In this document: piece by piece, positions 3,968 through 8,233 of the stretch | How positions within the stretch are numbered: the stretch's first letter is position 1 | Layout: each line of letters begins with the position of its first letter | Source: a virus | Strand: one strand, 5' to 3' | IMG/VR virus record: IMGVR_UViG_3300021197_001785 | Span: 1 to 20,113 of that record | DNA length: 20,113 nucleotides | Made by a program: the position numbers and the translations under genes | The notes under the pieces: generated by a model | Seen by the model: only the letters and a program-made list of their open reading frames with translations | Database searches by the model: none | Told to the model about the DNA's origin: nothing

Positions 3968-4215
3968 TCAAATTTAATCTGTATGTCTATTGCGTGATCC
4001 ACCTCACCCGAAAGCTCCACGCTAGATAAATCTGGAAGCGTTTTCTTTAACAATCCAAGGGCCACAGTAATTTGATCTCTGCTCATTTGAACTGGCTTGC
4101 CCGACTGTGGGTCAAGATCATTGTTTGCAAACATATTCAATCTGTTAACTAACTGACTGGTCTTTATTTTGTCCCTCGTATGTGCGTCATGCTTTGGGTT
4201 TAATCTTCGTGCCAT
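3964..4215 (-). CDS. Probable terminase small subunit-like protein
   Basis: An 83-aa protein ending four bases inside the large terminase gene (ATGA), the usual place for the small subunit that recognises DNA and regulates TerL. The N-terminus is basic (MARRLNPKHDAHTRDKIKTS). The middle has helical segments (SQLVNRLNMFANN and SRDQITVALGLLKKTLPDLS), and the C-terminus is acidic with alternating hydrophobic residues. Similar short proteins with the ALGLLKKTLPDLSSVE segment occur before TerL in many proteobacterial phages, often unannotated or called TerS. The start at 4215 overlaps the methyltransferase stop as TGATG. The functional call rests mainly on position and that segment. Confidence 0.6.
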   Translation of the reverse strand: MARRLNPKHDAHTRDKIKTSQLVNRLNMFANNDLDPQSGKPVQMSRDQITVALGLLKKTLPDLSSVELSGEVDHAIDIQIKFE

Positions 4216-4727
4216 CAGCTTCTCCCCACAAAGACTGTTTCTGCAAACAAGTCATTGTCAAAGAGACCCCAAACGCAATTATCTTTTCCTGTCGTATTGC
4301 CGAACCATTTCACTCGACCAATACTGATAATTTTTTTACAGCTTACCATGAAAGGTATTGCTTGCTTGGTGTGCATCCAATCGGCATCGAATAAAAGCCA
4401 CGTTGGTTTTCTCACCCGAAAGAAATCAATTAAAGGATGTAATATATTTCGATCCCAAGGAGGGTTTGTTATTACATATTCTGATTTTATATTTCTGACT
4501 TCAGTAAAATCTTTTTTTATTATTCCTTCATGTTGCGGTTCGATGTCACTTGCCCACAAACAATTCCCACCATAATATTCAAGGTGGTTGCACAACGCTC
4601 CATTACCAGCGCAAGGTTCCGCAAAAGTAAAATCTTGTGATAAATGTTTTATAAGCGGTTCAACTGCCTCTATCGGTGTTGAATAAAAATCTCTTTCTTT
4701 TCTTTTGAAATTTGATCGTTTGCCCAT
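4215..4727 (-). CDS. Phage SAM-dependent DNA methyltransferase, probably N6-adenine type
   Basis: A 170-aa class I methyltransferase. The SAM-binding motif I is FAEPCAGNGAL at about residues 34-44, and the catalytic motif IV is NPPW at about 88-91, the D/N-PP-Y/W signature of amino-methyltransferases acting on adenine or cytosine N4. The N-terminal RDFYSTPIEAVEPLI is typical of small phage enzymes of this kind. No restriction partner is visible, so a solitary enzyme that alters phage DNA, for instance against host restriction, is likely. The start ATG is preceded by AAGG at longish spacing. Its stop overlaps the next start (TGATG). Substrate base and recognition site cannot be read from the sequence. 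Confidence 0.85.
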   Translation of the reverse strand: MGKRSNFKRKERDFYSTPIEAVEPLIKHLSQDFTFAEPCAGNGALCNHLEYYGGNCLWASDIEPQHEGIIKKDFTEVRNIKSEYVITNPPWDRNILHPLIDFFRVRKPTWLLFDADWMHTKQAIPFMVSCKKIISIGRVKWFGNTTGKDNCVWGLFDNDLFAETVFVGRS

Positions 4728-5983: not shown

Positions 5984-6528
5984 GAAACTTTCCTTGCCAC
6001 ATTCTCAAAATTAATATTGCCTTTGCTTTGCCGTAAAAGATTATTGTTTTTCCACTCAGCAATTTTCTCGCTAGGAATCGTTATGTCTAATTCAGCATCA
6101 GGATTTTCTCGTAATATTTTTACAGCTTGCCCAATCAAATATTTTCGAGCGTCTACAAAAAAGCCTTCCCTGTAAGCCCGTAAGTTTTTATCAAGTTTTT
6201 TGTTAGCGTAATCGTGCGCTTGATTTGTTCTTTTGACTGCCCTCATTTCATCGCTGTCAGTTTCTATCGGCTGGTCATACCCCCCTAGTTTTTTACAGGC
6301 GGTAATAAACTCACCGCTGGAAGGCCAGTTTTTATATTTGTGGTTTTTCCTTACCGTGTGAAACGCTTGCTTTAAAATCTCTTCGGAGAAATTTTTAAGG
6401 TCATCAACGTAATCGCCAATTATTATTTCAAGATTCCCATCTGGTGCTTTCCAACCGCGCTCTTGCATCGGTGAGATAATGCACTTTTTTACTTTTGATT
6501 TAACTTCTAAACTATATAAACTACTCAT
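5980..6528 (-). CDS. Possible phage replication protein (helicase-loader-like)
   Basis: A 182-aa protein placed two genes after the O-like initiator, where lambda P-type helicase loaders usually sit. Residues about 35-85 contain a helical block with the pattern KNFSEEILKQAFHTVRKNH followed by WPSSGEFITACKKL, like the short domain near the start of several phage loader or loader-inhibitor proteins. The remainder is basic with helices, and no Walker motif is visible, so it would not be a DnaC-type ATPase. The start overlaps the methyltransferase stop (ATGA), and its own stop overlaps the next GTG. Function is inferred from context. Confidence 0.55.
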   Translation of the reverse strand: MSSLYSLEVKSKVKKCIISPMQERGWKAPDGNLEIIIGDYVDDLKNFSEEILKQAFHTVRKNHKYKNWPSSGEFITACKKLGGYDQPIETDSDEMRAVKRTNQAHDYANKKLDKNLRAYREGFFVDARKYLIGQAVKILRENPDAELDITIPSEKIAEWKNNNLLRQSKGNINFENVARKVS

Positions 6529-7622
6529 AATAATTCACTTTCAAAAATTGCCGTAAATATCTCAGATGCTACCTGAGGAACAATCGCATTGCCCAACGCT
6601 TTCAGCCTCTTAGCCCTGTCCTTCTGCCCTTTAGTCACTCTTGGGACTCCTCGTTCCCAACCTTCGTCCACCCAGGTGGATAGCCTTGGAGTATTTCTAC
6701 CCAATCGGCTGAAAGTTGGTGATCGTTTTGATGCGTCCTCACTGCTTCGTCCAGATTGGCTTTGTATGTCGGACTGCCCATAAACCTGTTTTTCACTGCT
6801 CCCTTGGAATTTGCTGAACTCGGTGTCGGCCACATCTTTTGCTCTTCCATCACTACTTTTTGTCCGAGTGTCGCTAACCCTGGGTTCTTTATTCTTGATG
6901 GTGGTACTGTGCTTCCATCTTTGTAATCCCGCGCTCTGGGTGTCGGCCACATTTTCTCCGCATGGTTCACCGCATCCCTCAGCTTCACGCCCCACCTCAC
7001 CCCTTCCTTGTTCTTCCGACTGAAGCTGCCGTTCTGAACTATTCCCCCCTCCACATCCGCTGCCCTTGGTGTCGGCCACCATCCGCTGTTCATGCTGGGA
7101 GCCATCTGGTTCGCCTTGGCTGTGGGCGTATGCAATAATCCAGACTCTTTGGCGTCTGTGCGGGGCGTTTTTGGAGACAGCTCCAAATACGAGCGGCCAC
7201 GCATGGTAACCTTCATTTGAAAGACTAAGTAACACCTCGTCGATTCCCATTGAGAGGTGACCAACAACATTTTCAAAAACGCATACATTGGGTCTTGTTT
7301 GCTTAACGATTTCAAGCACCCACGGCCAGATGTGACGGTCATCTGCCGTGCCTTTGCGCTTCCCAGCTTGGGAAAAGGGTTGGCAAGGATATCCCGCTGT
7401 GAGGATTGAGACTTTACCGAAGTCTTTGGGGAAGGTTTTGACATCTTCGTAGATTGGGACGTTAGGCCAGTGCTTTCCGAGGACTTGCTGGCAGAACTTG
7501 TCTGGCTCACAGAAGGCGATTGTGGAAACATCTCGATTTGTTCTTCGTCCAGCGTCTGCGATTGCGAGGGCAAATCCTCCGATTCCGCTGCAGAGGTCAA
7601 GATGTGTGATTTCTCCATTCAT
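6525..7622 (-). CDS. DNA (cytosine-5)-methyltransferase, phage Dcm-type
   Basis: Transfers methyl from SAM to C5 of cytosine in a specific DNA site. All core motifs are in frame over 365 aa: motif I LDLCSGIGGFA (8-18), motif IV with catalytic Cys80 in GYPCQPFSQAGKR, motif VI ENV (117-119), motif VIII HRRQRVWIIA (about 155-164) and motif X-like LGNAIVPQ near residue 343. The variable recognition region (about 170-300) is hydrophilic and built of repeated VADT/VSDT units. The start ATG overlaps the previous stop (ATGA) behind GGAGG with four bases spacing. A second long open frame, 6635-7618, overlaps almost the whole gene. No restriction endonuclease is nearby, so it is probably a solitary modification enzyme. 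Confidence 0.95.
   Translation of the reverse strand: MNGEITHLDLCSGIGGFALAIADAGRRTNRDVSTIAFCEPDKFCQQVLGKHWPNVPIYEDVKTFPKDFGKVSILTAGYPCQPFSQAGKRKGTADDRHIWPWVLEIVKQTRPNVCVFENVVGHLSMGIDEVLLSLSNEGYHAWPLVFGAVSKNAPHRRQRVWIIAYAHSQGEPDGSQHEQRMVADTKGSGCGGGNSSERQLQSEEQGRGEVGREAEGCGEPCGENVADTQSAGLQRWKHSTTIKNKEPRVSDTRTKSSDGRAKDVADTEFSKFQGSSEKQVYGQSDIQSQSGRSSEDASKRSPTFSRLGRNTPRLSTWVDEGWERGVPRVTKGQKDRAKRLKALGNAIVPQVASEIFTAIFESELL
6635..7618 (-). CDS. Overlapping alternate-frame ORF with WPTP repeats
   Basis: A 327-codon frame on the same strand as the methyltransferase but in another phase, open along nearly its whole length. Its ATG (7618) lies four bases after the methyltransferase ATG (ATGAATG) and can use the same GGAGG at eight bases, a better spacing. 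The N-terminal third is Ser-rich and low-complexity. Then come LVTSQWESTRCYLVFQMKV, LLHTPTAKAN, and three units headed WWPTPRAADVEGG, MWPTPRARDYKDG and MWPTPSSANSKG, ending in DWVEILQGYPPGWT. From memory, proteins with repeated (W/L)PTP units and a WVEWLMGFPxGWT-like end are common in phage and bacterial databases near cytosine methyltransferases. It may be a real overprinted gene or an echo of the VADT repeats; I cannot decide from one sequence. Confidence 0.35.
   Translation of the reverse strand: MEKSHILTSAAESEDLPSQSQTLDEEQIEMFPQSPSVSQTSSASKSSESTGLTSQSTKMSKPSPKTSVKSQSSQRDILANPFPKLGSAKARQMTVTSGRGCLKSLSKQDPMYAFLKMLLVTSQWESTRCYLVFQMKVTMRGRSYLELSPKTPRTDAKESGLLHTPTAKANQMAPSMNSGWWPTPRAADVEGGIVQNGSFSRKNKEGVRWGVKLRDAVNHAEKMWPTPRARDYKDGSTVPPSRIKNPGLATLGQKVVMEEQKMWPTPSSANSKGAVKNRFMGSPTYKANLDEAVRTHQNDHQLSADWVEILQGYPPGWTKVGNEESQE
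6822..7080. repeat. Three spaced copies of a 12-base repeat inside the methyltransferase gene
   Basis: GGTGTCGGCCAC occurs at 6822-6833, 6939-6950 and 7068-7079, 117 and 129 bases apart, both multiples of three. On the coding strand each encodes VADT in the methyltransferase frame and WPTP in the overlapping frame. A diverged fourth unit encodes VSDT. The spacing suggests internal duplication of a roughly 40-codon unit in the target-recognition region. Confidence 0.8.
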
Positions 7623-8233
7623 ATTGCCTCCAGTATTTTGTTGACCTCATCAGATCGGTCAGGTTTTTCTTGAGAAAATTCAATTTTTTTGTTCAGCCAA
7701 GTTACACCAAAGGACATTCGGCAGGATTTTATTTCTGTTCCTTTTTCAATATGCCAAGCTTTCCACAAATTAAATTCAGTCGGGATGTTCAAAGAGGGAA
7801 ATTGTTTCGATAATTCAGTGTTCCACTTTTCTGGTAAAACTAAATCTTCAGAGAAAATTATTTTTGGCTTAATCTTCTCTTCTCTTCTCTTTACTATATT
7901 CTCTTTCTCTTCTCTTCTCTTCTCTATGTCATCAACTTGATATCCTTCTGATATCATCTTGTTATCATCTTGAATAATCCAATGATTTAAGTGGCTTATA
8001 GATTTTTCAATAACTTTGATATCTTTACGTAATCGAAATGATATAGTTTTGATATCAGGGAGATATCCATCTGTCTCAGAACCCAATAACCATAATTCTA
8101 CAAGTATTTTTGCATCGATTGGTTCTAAATTTGCCCACTCAATATCATTCAATAATCCGCGATAAACTTTGATCCAAATTGGGCTTCTATCTTTGAAATG
8201 TTGAAAGTCATTCCAGTTTTTAATTTTATACAT
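7619..8233 (-). CDS. Phage replication initiator (lambda O-like organiser)
   Basis: A 204-aa protein with an N-terminal winged-helix-like region of the phage replisome-organiser type: WIKVYRGLLNDIEWANLEP, then ILVELWLLGSETDGYLPDI and ISFRLR. A charged linker follows (KRREEKE/KRREEK repeats, about 107-123). The C-terminal domain (FSEDLVLPEKWNTELSKQF to MSFGVTWLNKKIEF) resembles ends of phage initiators that contact the loader or helicase. The coding DNA for the linker and the stretch before it carries the iteron array and pyrimidine tract described separately, as in lambda O. The start at 8233 overlaps the previous gene by eight bases behind AAGGAT. Downstream are the methyltransferase and the possible loader. 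Confidence 0.75.
   Translation of the reverse strand: MYKIKNWNDFQHFKDRSPIWIKVYRGLLNDIEWANLEPIDAKILVELWLLGSETDGYLPDIKTISFRLRKDIKVIEKSISHLNHWIIQDDNKMISEGYQVDDIEKRREEKENIVKRREEKIKPKIIFSEDLVLPEKWNTELSKQFPSLNIPTEFNLWKAWHIEKGTEIKSCRMSFGVTWLNKKIEFSQEKPDRSDEVNKILEAI
7873..8070. other. Putative replication origin: 11-bp iterons beside a pyrimidine tract, inside the initiator gene
   Basis: Copies of a TTGATATC-like word recur at exact 11-base steps. One cluster starts at 7937 (TTGATATC), 7948 (CTGATATC), 7959 (TTGTTATC) and 7970 (TTGAATAATCC). A second starts at 8016 (TTGATATC), 8027 (weak), 8038 (ATGATATA), 8049 (TTGATATC) and 8060 (GAGATATC). To their left, 7873-7925 is almost purely pyrimidine on the plus strand, with repeated TCTTC pentamers and an AT-rich break. 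Iterons beside an easily melted, strand-biased tract within the initiator gene match the lambda origin layout. Because 11 is not a multiple of 3, the repeat cannot come from repeated amino acids. Confidence 0.65.

Follow-up and report, generated by a model that had tools for sequence, protein, structure and literature searches.

Overlapping reading frames in a phage C5-cytosine methyltransferase locus probably encode the two halves of one split enzyme

Two long open reading frames run on the same strand through a cytosine methyltransferase locus, raising the question of whether the second frame is a gene and, if so, what its product contributes to methylation. The window (the whole 20,113 nt stretch of DNA that was analysed) is a virus record and belongs to a temperate tailed phage, as its phage genes include those for portal, terminase, Erf, RusA, integrase and endolysin. 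The methyltransferase ORF, here called alpha, starts at an ATG at 7622 and encodes 365 aa. The second ORF, beta, lies +1 relative to alpha, starts at an ATG at 7618 and encodes 327 aa, and leaves only the first four and the last 110 bases of alpha uncovered. The start region reads ACTGGAGGCAATATGAATGGAG, and GGAGGCAATATGAATG gives the sequence with the window-type alpha/beta start. A first-pass annotation had described both ATGs as part of ATGAATG behind one GGAGG, with the second frame open for 327 codons; coordinates and spacing (GGAGG to alpha ATG, 4 nt; GGAGG to beta ATG, 8 nt) were confirmed. The TGA stop of the upstream ORF (7621-7619) sits inside ATGA, overlapping the alpha ATG, and the beta ATG is the codon directly after that TGA, in the same frame as the upstream ORF. 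The features of this layout are as follows.

6525-7622, minus strand: alpha, C5-cytosine methyltransferase catalytic subunit, motifs I-VIII and X (PF00145, E 1.3e-36; phrog_363, E 1e-64)
6635-7618, minus strand: beta, putative overlapping +1-frame subunit with a conserved N-terminal region, a WPTP cassette array and motif IX (phrog_1008; substitution tests)
7616-7622, minus strand: ATGAATG, in which the alpha (7622) and beta (7618) starts overlap (sequence; tandem starts in relatives)
7627-7631, minus strand: GGAGG Shine-Dalgarno (SD) sequence, presumably used by both starts
7619-8233, minus strand: replication-protein-like ORF upstream of alpha (phage replication-protein family)

The beta product had been called non-random on account of its WPTP units, and the underlying DNA bears this out. 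The 12-mer GTGGCCGACACC occurs in exactly three copies, at 6822, 6939 and 7068 (spacings of 129 and 117 bases), against a chance expectation of 0.42 copies at up to 2 mismatches. It is translated as VADT in the alpha frame and as WPTP in the beta frame.

7068-7079, minus strand: repeat copy 1 (VADT / WPTP)
6939-6950, minus strand: repeat copy 2 (VADT / WPTP)
6822-6833, minus strand: repeat copy 3 (VADT / WPTP)

Is the second frame kept open by selection? Expected stops were derived by synonymous permutation, which preserved the alpha protein and its codon usage. The beta frame of the window contains no stop where 6.6 were expected, and none of 2,000 permutations was stop-free; the +2 frame has about as many stops as expected. 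Each of the first 46 homologous loci likewise lacks a stop in the beta frame, where 3.4-10.7 were expected depending on the locus (P never above 0.008). Over 208 non-identical homologous loci, 0 stops were observed against 1,396 expected; since the loci share a phylogeny, summed expectations of this kind are descriptive, and the argument is carried by pairwise contrasts. The bias of searching with beta was meant to be removed by fetching 80 loci with the alpha alignment alone, these being the closest relatives of alpha and not C5-methyltransferases at large. Beta was present in all 80, none of which combined an intact methyltransferase with second-frame stops, and it lay in the +1 frame in 79. 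In the single exception (L284) the best beta match fell in a tandem duplicate; a +1 beta is present in the first copy too. The converse holds as well: with beta codons permuted, the alpha frame shows 0 stops in the cassette region against 995 expected in 207 loci, namely those in which the alpha ORF was found, a few AquI-like loci being counted only before the stop of alpha. That alpha is kept open through the cassette region is as expected if ribosomes must pass through it to reach motif X.

Substitutions were compared in 61 disjoint pairs of relatives, a few of which share a contig. Before beta, the rates per codon at alpha positions 1, 2 and 3 were.091,.032 and.301. Where beta overlaps the catalytic region they were.084,.042 and.140, from motif VIII to the end of beta (the last third of beta).176,.047 and.047, and after beta.053,.043 and.287. 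Alpha position 1 is the wobble position of beta, so the pattern in the cassette region is that of the beta frame; it was found in 58 of 60 informative pairs there and in 0 of 53 before beta. Classifying changes by the protein they alter gave the same reversal (44 pairs): in the cassette region, changes altering alpha only reached 2.70 times expectation and those altering beta only 0.48 times, compared with 0.36 and 2.97 times, respectively, before beta. Within the overlap the pattern thus moves to the second frame, which is not expected from the first frame alone. Beta is a real gene and the overlap holds two coding frames; in the last third of beta it is beta that is constrained, and alpha drifts.

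The placement of start codons adds a further line of evidence. The beta ORF of most relatives begins some 50 codons inside alpha, immediately after a stop in its own frame, and its SD sequence is encoded within alpha (TAAAGGAGTTAGCCAATG is an example). Among the loci with such internal starts, 160 of 173 carry an SD and a start codon for beta, compared with 46.8 expected under synonymous permutation. In 33 of 254 loci, including the window, the beta frame is already open close to the alpha start, with 0 stops in that early part against 28.9 expected; in 16 of these 33 the two start codons lie 4 nt apart, mostly as (A/G)TGAATG. In the window's group, alpha third positions changed at 20 of 86 sites over beta residues 1-58 and at 21 of 48 after beta (Fisher p 0.019), modest evidence that the 58-residue N-terminal extension of beta in this group is translated and selected.

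These results bear on the view that beta is spurious, open as a by-product of alpha residues and base composition, and as such a common database artefact. Alpha does impose part of the conservation of beta over motifs IV-VIII. The absence of stops with alpha protein and codon usage preserved, the reversed substitution pattern, the excess of internal SD sequences and the existence of natural forms without the VADT region of alpha nevertheless leave this view with next to no probability. Of the outcomes proposed earlier, a widespread spurious gene family is excluded by the retention of the frame in every alpha-fetched locus and by the substitution shift within the overlap, and true overprinting and a partner protein of the methyltransferase hold together.

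What, then, does each frame encode? Alpha carries motifs I, IV, VI, VIII and X and a HhaI-like catalytic fold, as expected of a PF00145 member. Its AF2 model superposes on M.HhaI with a Z of 20 over 194 residues at 2.9 A, and PCQ (motif IV) and ENV (motif VI) are invariant in the alignment.

7575-7601, minus strand: alpha motif I, LDLCSGIGG (sequence alignment)
7362-7394, minus strand: alpha motif IV with the catalytic Cys, GYPCQPFSQAG (PCQ invariant in 32 rows)
7131-7166, minus strand: alpha motif VIII region, APHRRQRVWIIA (alignment, profile)
6633-7103, minus strand: alpha residues 174-330, VADT region, predicted disordered linker (weakly constrained, kept open)
6546-6611, minus strand: alpha motif X, KRLKALGNAIVPQVASEIFTAI (in the alpha frame again, past the end of beta)

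The alpha profile matched M.HhaI at 13-174 (E 4e-32) and, weakly, once more at motif X (294-318), with no profile match in the stretch corresponding to alpha 174-330. AlphaFold was mostly confident at residues 1-173 and 336-361, and pLDDT was below 50 throughout 174-330. Alpha thus has no recognizable target-recognition domain (TRD) and no motif IX, which a PF00145 member would be expected to carry in one chain with VIII and X and between the two; the corresponding segment is found in beta. We had considered the VADT region as an alternative TRD and dropped the idea, as alpha changes freely there and is predicted to be disordered.

Beta matches phrog_1008, a family named ‘DNA methyltransferase’, over residues 38-320 (E 2.8e-27), and can be divided as follows.

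7154-7366, minus strand: beta residues about 85-155, conserved N-terminal region (ARQMTVTSG...STRCYLVFQ...) (conservation, AF2)
7079-7138, minus strand: beta cassette 1, LLHTPTAKANQMAPSMNSGW (cluster of 38 modules in 38 loci)
6950-7078, minus strand: beta cassette 2, beginning WPTPRAADVEGG, 43 aa (cluster of 18 loci)
6833-6949, minus strand: beta cassette 3, beginning WPTPRARDYKDGS, 39 aa (cluster of 7 loci)
6716-6832, minus strand: beta cassette 4, WPTPSSANSKGAVKNRFMGSPTYKANLDEAVRTHQNDHQ, 39 aa (found in L010, with related versions in other loci; divided in two by the script)
6665-6715, minus strand: candidate beta motif IX, LSADWVEILQGYPPGWT (placed by relatives, single-chain and split, that have it between VIII and X)

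The N-terminal region is predicted to form two helices and a beta hairpin (AF2 pLDDT mostly 52-84 by 10-residue block), and could possibly be an alpha-docking domain. The C-terminal end given for the second-frame product, DWVEILQGYPPGWT, is present, and the consensus of this end is L(N/S)x(x)WVE(W)LMG(Y/F)PxGWT. It resembles HhaI motif IX, LHPRECARVMGYPDSY. This resemblance by itself is a lead; the probable assignment of this end of the window beta as motif IX draws on relatives. Modelled alone with 28 homologues, beta reached a mean pLDDT of 55, and Foldseek returned nothing better than E 0.26 for this model. No solved structure was matched by the beta profile among PDB sequences, and the window beta had no significant match, and none to a methyltransferase model, in Pfam and NCBIfam.

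Between these ends lies the variable part of beta. Cut at xTP anchors, it yielded 630 modules from 210 loci, falling into 46 clusters with three or more members and arranged in 170 distinct architectures, with the same module in differing positions and beside differing neighbours; the window beta has about four. Such modules may correspond to the tandem exchangeable recognition units of multispecific phage C5-methyltransferases. In 150 sampled pairs of loci with a module in common and differing architectures, module DNA was more alike than the catalytic region by >10 points in 33 pairs and less alike by >10 points in 12, which is suggestive of exchange of cassettes between loci. From their position, and by analogy with multispecific phage methyltransferases, each cassette may be a recognition unit.

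The distribution of the arrangement, and the ways in which it is broken up elsewhere, bear on the relationship between the two proteins. A tblastn search with beta found it also in Paenibacillus larvae phages, Lactobacillus phages and marine phages; scans for the locus returned 39 viral loci with a single sequence, >422 viral loci with a profile and 248 bacterial genome loci from many phyla. Gene 58 of phage N15 (gp58; L290:1344-2354) has the same overlapping layout as the window, and the overlapping beta frame is also found in the enterobacterial phages SEN5 (L125) and K1G (L291, gp34/gp35). The suggestion that either annotation can hide the other was borne out: N15 and SEN5 have only alpha annotated, and in K1G and Paenibacillus phage Bloom both ORFs are annotated as ‘DNA methyltransferase’.

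At loci L082 (identical to L132, Brevibacillus borstelensis), L093 and L136, alpha ends just after motif VIII, at about 170 aa, and the beta frame carries the cassettes, motif IX and motif X; the VADT region of alpha is missing. Residues 273-354 of the L082 beta match positions 256-317 of the 327-position C5-methyltransferase profile phrog_363 (E 1.3e-7). Because the automatic ‘AquI-like’ class proved to be largely a regex artefact, the AquI-like loci used here are those read by eye (L082/L132, L093, L136, L122 and L124). The two halves form distinct ORFs with a partial overlap in the actinophages Ovechkin and DrYang. In the actinophages DotProduct (gp64) and Akhila (gp60) a single chain contains motifs I-VIII, LPTP cassettes, the IX-like FPEWMMGWPAGW and then X, and phrog_1008 covers the cassette/IX segment of the Akhila chain (residues 295-482). 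Relatives thus carry the beta segment between VIII and X or joined with X. Both frames, as described above, are under selection. At the Akhila locus (L292:1355-1696) a +1 ORF like the N-terminal region of beta persists, with cassettes, IX and X now in the alpha frame. This suggests that a frameshift fused the two ORFs of an ancestor into the single chain, or that the change went the other way.

Single chains in this order make it plausible that a fused enzyme would be viable, and we considered programmed +1 frameshifting after motif VIII, producing a fused chain of the alpha start, the WPTP region and motif IX. However, the beta frame is already open and constrained over the catalytic region, long before a shift could be of use; for most betas there is a dedicated SD, with the start immediately after a stop in the beta frame; and motif X remains in alpha, requiring a second shift back. 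We consider such frameshifting improbable. We give an equally low chance to the view that beta, though real, is not the specificity part and arose by overprinting as an accessory protein, such as one that inhibits a host system or stabilizes alpha. The want of a recognizable fold for beta alone, and an N-terminal region that is a separate conserved unit, would suit an accessory protein. Split and single-chain relatives, though, have the same cassettes and motif IX inside the methyltransferase, alpha is without these parts, and the cassette region is conserved in beta and drifts in alpha.

The explanation that we favour, with considerable confidence, is a naturally split C5-methyltransferase in overlapping frames, in which a catalytic alpha and a beta supplying recognition and motif IX complete one enzyme. 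Under this model, one C5-cytosine DNA methyltransferase would be encoded as two polypeptides: alpha (frame 0) with motifs I-VIII, a long unstructured stretch and motif X, and beta (frame +1) with the target-recognition region, about four WPTP cassettes and motif IX. Beta would bind alpha and thereby complete the enzyme, with one target recognized per cassette or pair of cassettes. The single GGAGG at ATGAATG, beside the stop of the preceding gene, would serve both starts and give coupled, roughly balanced synthesis of alpha and beta. The likely benefit would be modification of phage DNA against host restriction, with specificity altered by cassette exchange.

A broader reading, towards which we lean only slightly, is that of a widespread phage system in which a specificity subunit with combinatorial recognition cassettes is overprinted on the catalytic subunit. 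The catalytic frame would then be a passenger in the cassette DNA, a linker leading to X, with tandem ATGAATG starts in some groups and extra specificity subunits that can be added. The last point refers to a viral contig (L284:133-1952) with a tandem duplication, in which an intact alpha and beta are followed by a complete beta whose alpha is truncated and decayed. It has the look of a single catalytic subunit served by two specificity subunits, and it speaks for the independence of beta in the favoured model.

Naturally split C5-methyltransferases have precedents. M.EaeI is one, grouped with M.EcoHK31I, whose specificity is YGGCCR. Lee, Kam and Shaw (1995) reportedly found the small M.EcoHK31I gene nested within the large one in a different frame, and both proteins necessary for methylation in vitro. 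A Klebsiella aerogenes plasmid locus (L293) was rejected as the EaeI system, having phage-type neighbours and no annotated restriction gene. M.EcoHK31I consists of two polypeptides, the large with motifs I-VIII and X and the small with motif IX, and its TRD has been placed in the large subunit (PMC3404938). The window system resembles it in that alpha has I-VIII and X, with motif IX, by homology, in the small subunit. It differs in that the recognition-type cassettes are in beta, the matching stretch of alpha being predicted to be unstructured and weakly constrained; it is also phage-borne, with no restriction enzyme recognized beside it, and has shuffled cassettes and a tandem ATGAATG start. 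A further likeness is the small gene inside the large in another frame. The window system probably works like M.EcoHK31I. M.AquI is a two-subunit C5-methyltransferase naturally split after motif VIII (PMC3404938), and the loci L082/L132, L093 and L136 divide comparably, with IX and X in the second polypeptide. The window differs from the AquI type, as motif X is in alpha (6546-6611) and the genes overlap almost completely.

Multispecific phage C5-methyltransferases include, judging by titles cited in PMC8936443, those of SPR, SP-beta, phi3T and H2. Like the window system they are phage-borne, with several units in a variable region, target-recognizing there and putatively so in the window; those enzymes are single chains, whereas the window's units lie in a second frame. 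The phrog_1008 family unites the window beta with the same segment of single-chain enzymes, but the entry as returned gives the name ‘DNA methyltransferase’ alone, and leaves overlap and segment function unstated. Our literature search found no paper describing overlapping frames in phage C5-methyltransferases; the beta ORF is already annotated in K1G and Paenibacillus phages, and it is an explanation of the overlap that this search did not find.

It is rare for two constrained proteins to share a long same-strand overlap. This one extends across many phage lineages, among them the classic laboratory phage N15, and many bacterial phyla, and offers an uncluttered setting in which to study how sequences evolve when two frames are read. 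On the favoured model, many phage C5-methyltransferases cloned or annotated as a single ORF would lack the target-recognition half, and their specificity could be neither assigned nor tested from alpha alone. The cassettes would represent a large natural set for reading cytosine-methylation specificity.

Three further observations were made at these loci. In KT997847 (L004:1893-2821) a one-base frame break close to an A-run separates motif I, read in the beta frame, from the remainder of alpha in the other frame; either a sequencing error or a genuine shift may account for it. Gordonia phage Hans (L126) has an annotated LAGLIDADG endonuclease ORF in another frame within the methyltransferase region, and a similar ORF is found in DotProduct (L123). 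Finally, the window itself contains a second, short DNA methyltransferase-like ORF at 4215-4727 on the minus strand (phrog_799, E 2e-32).
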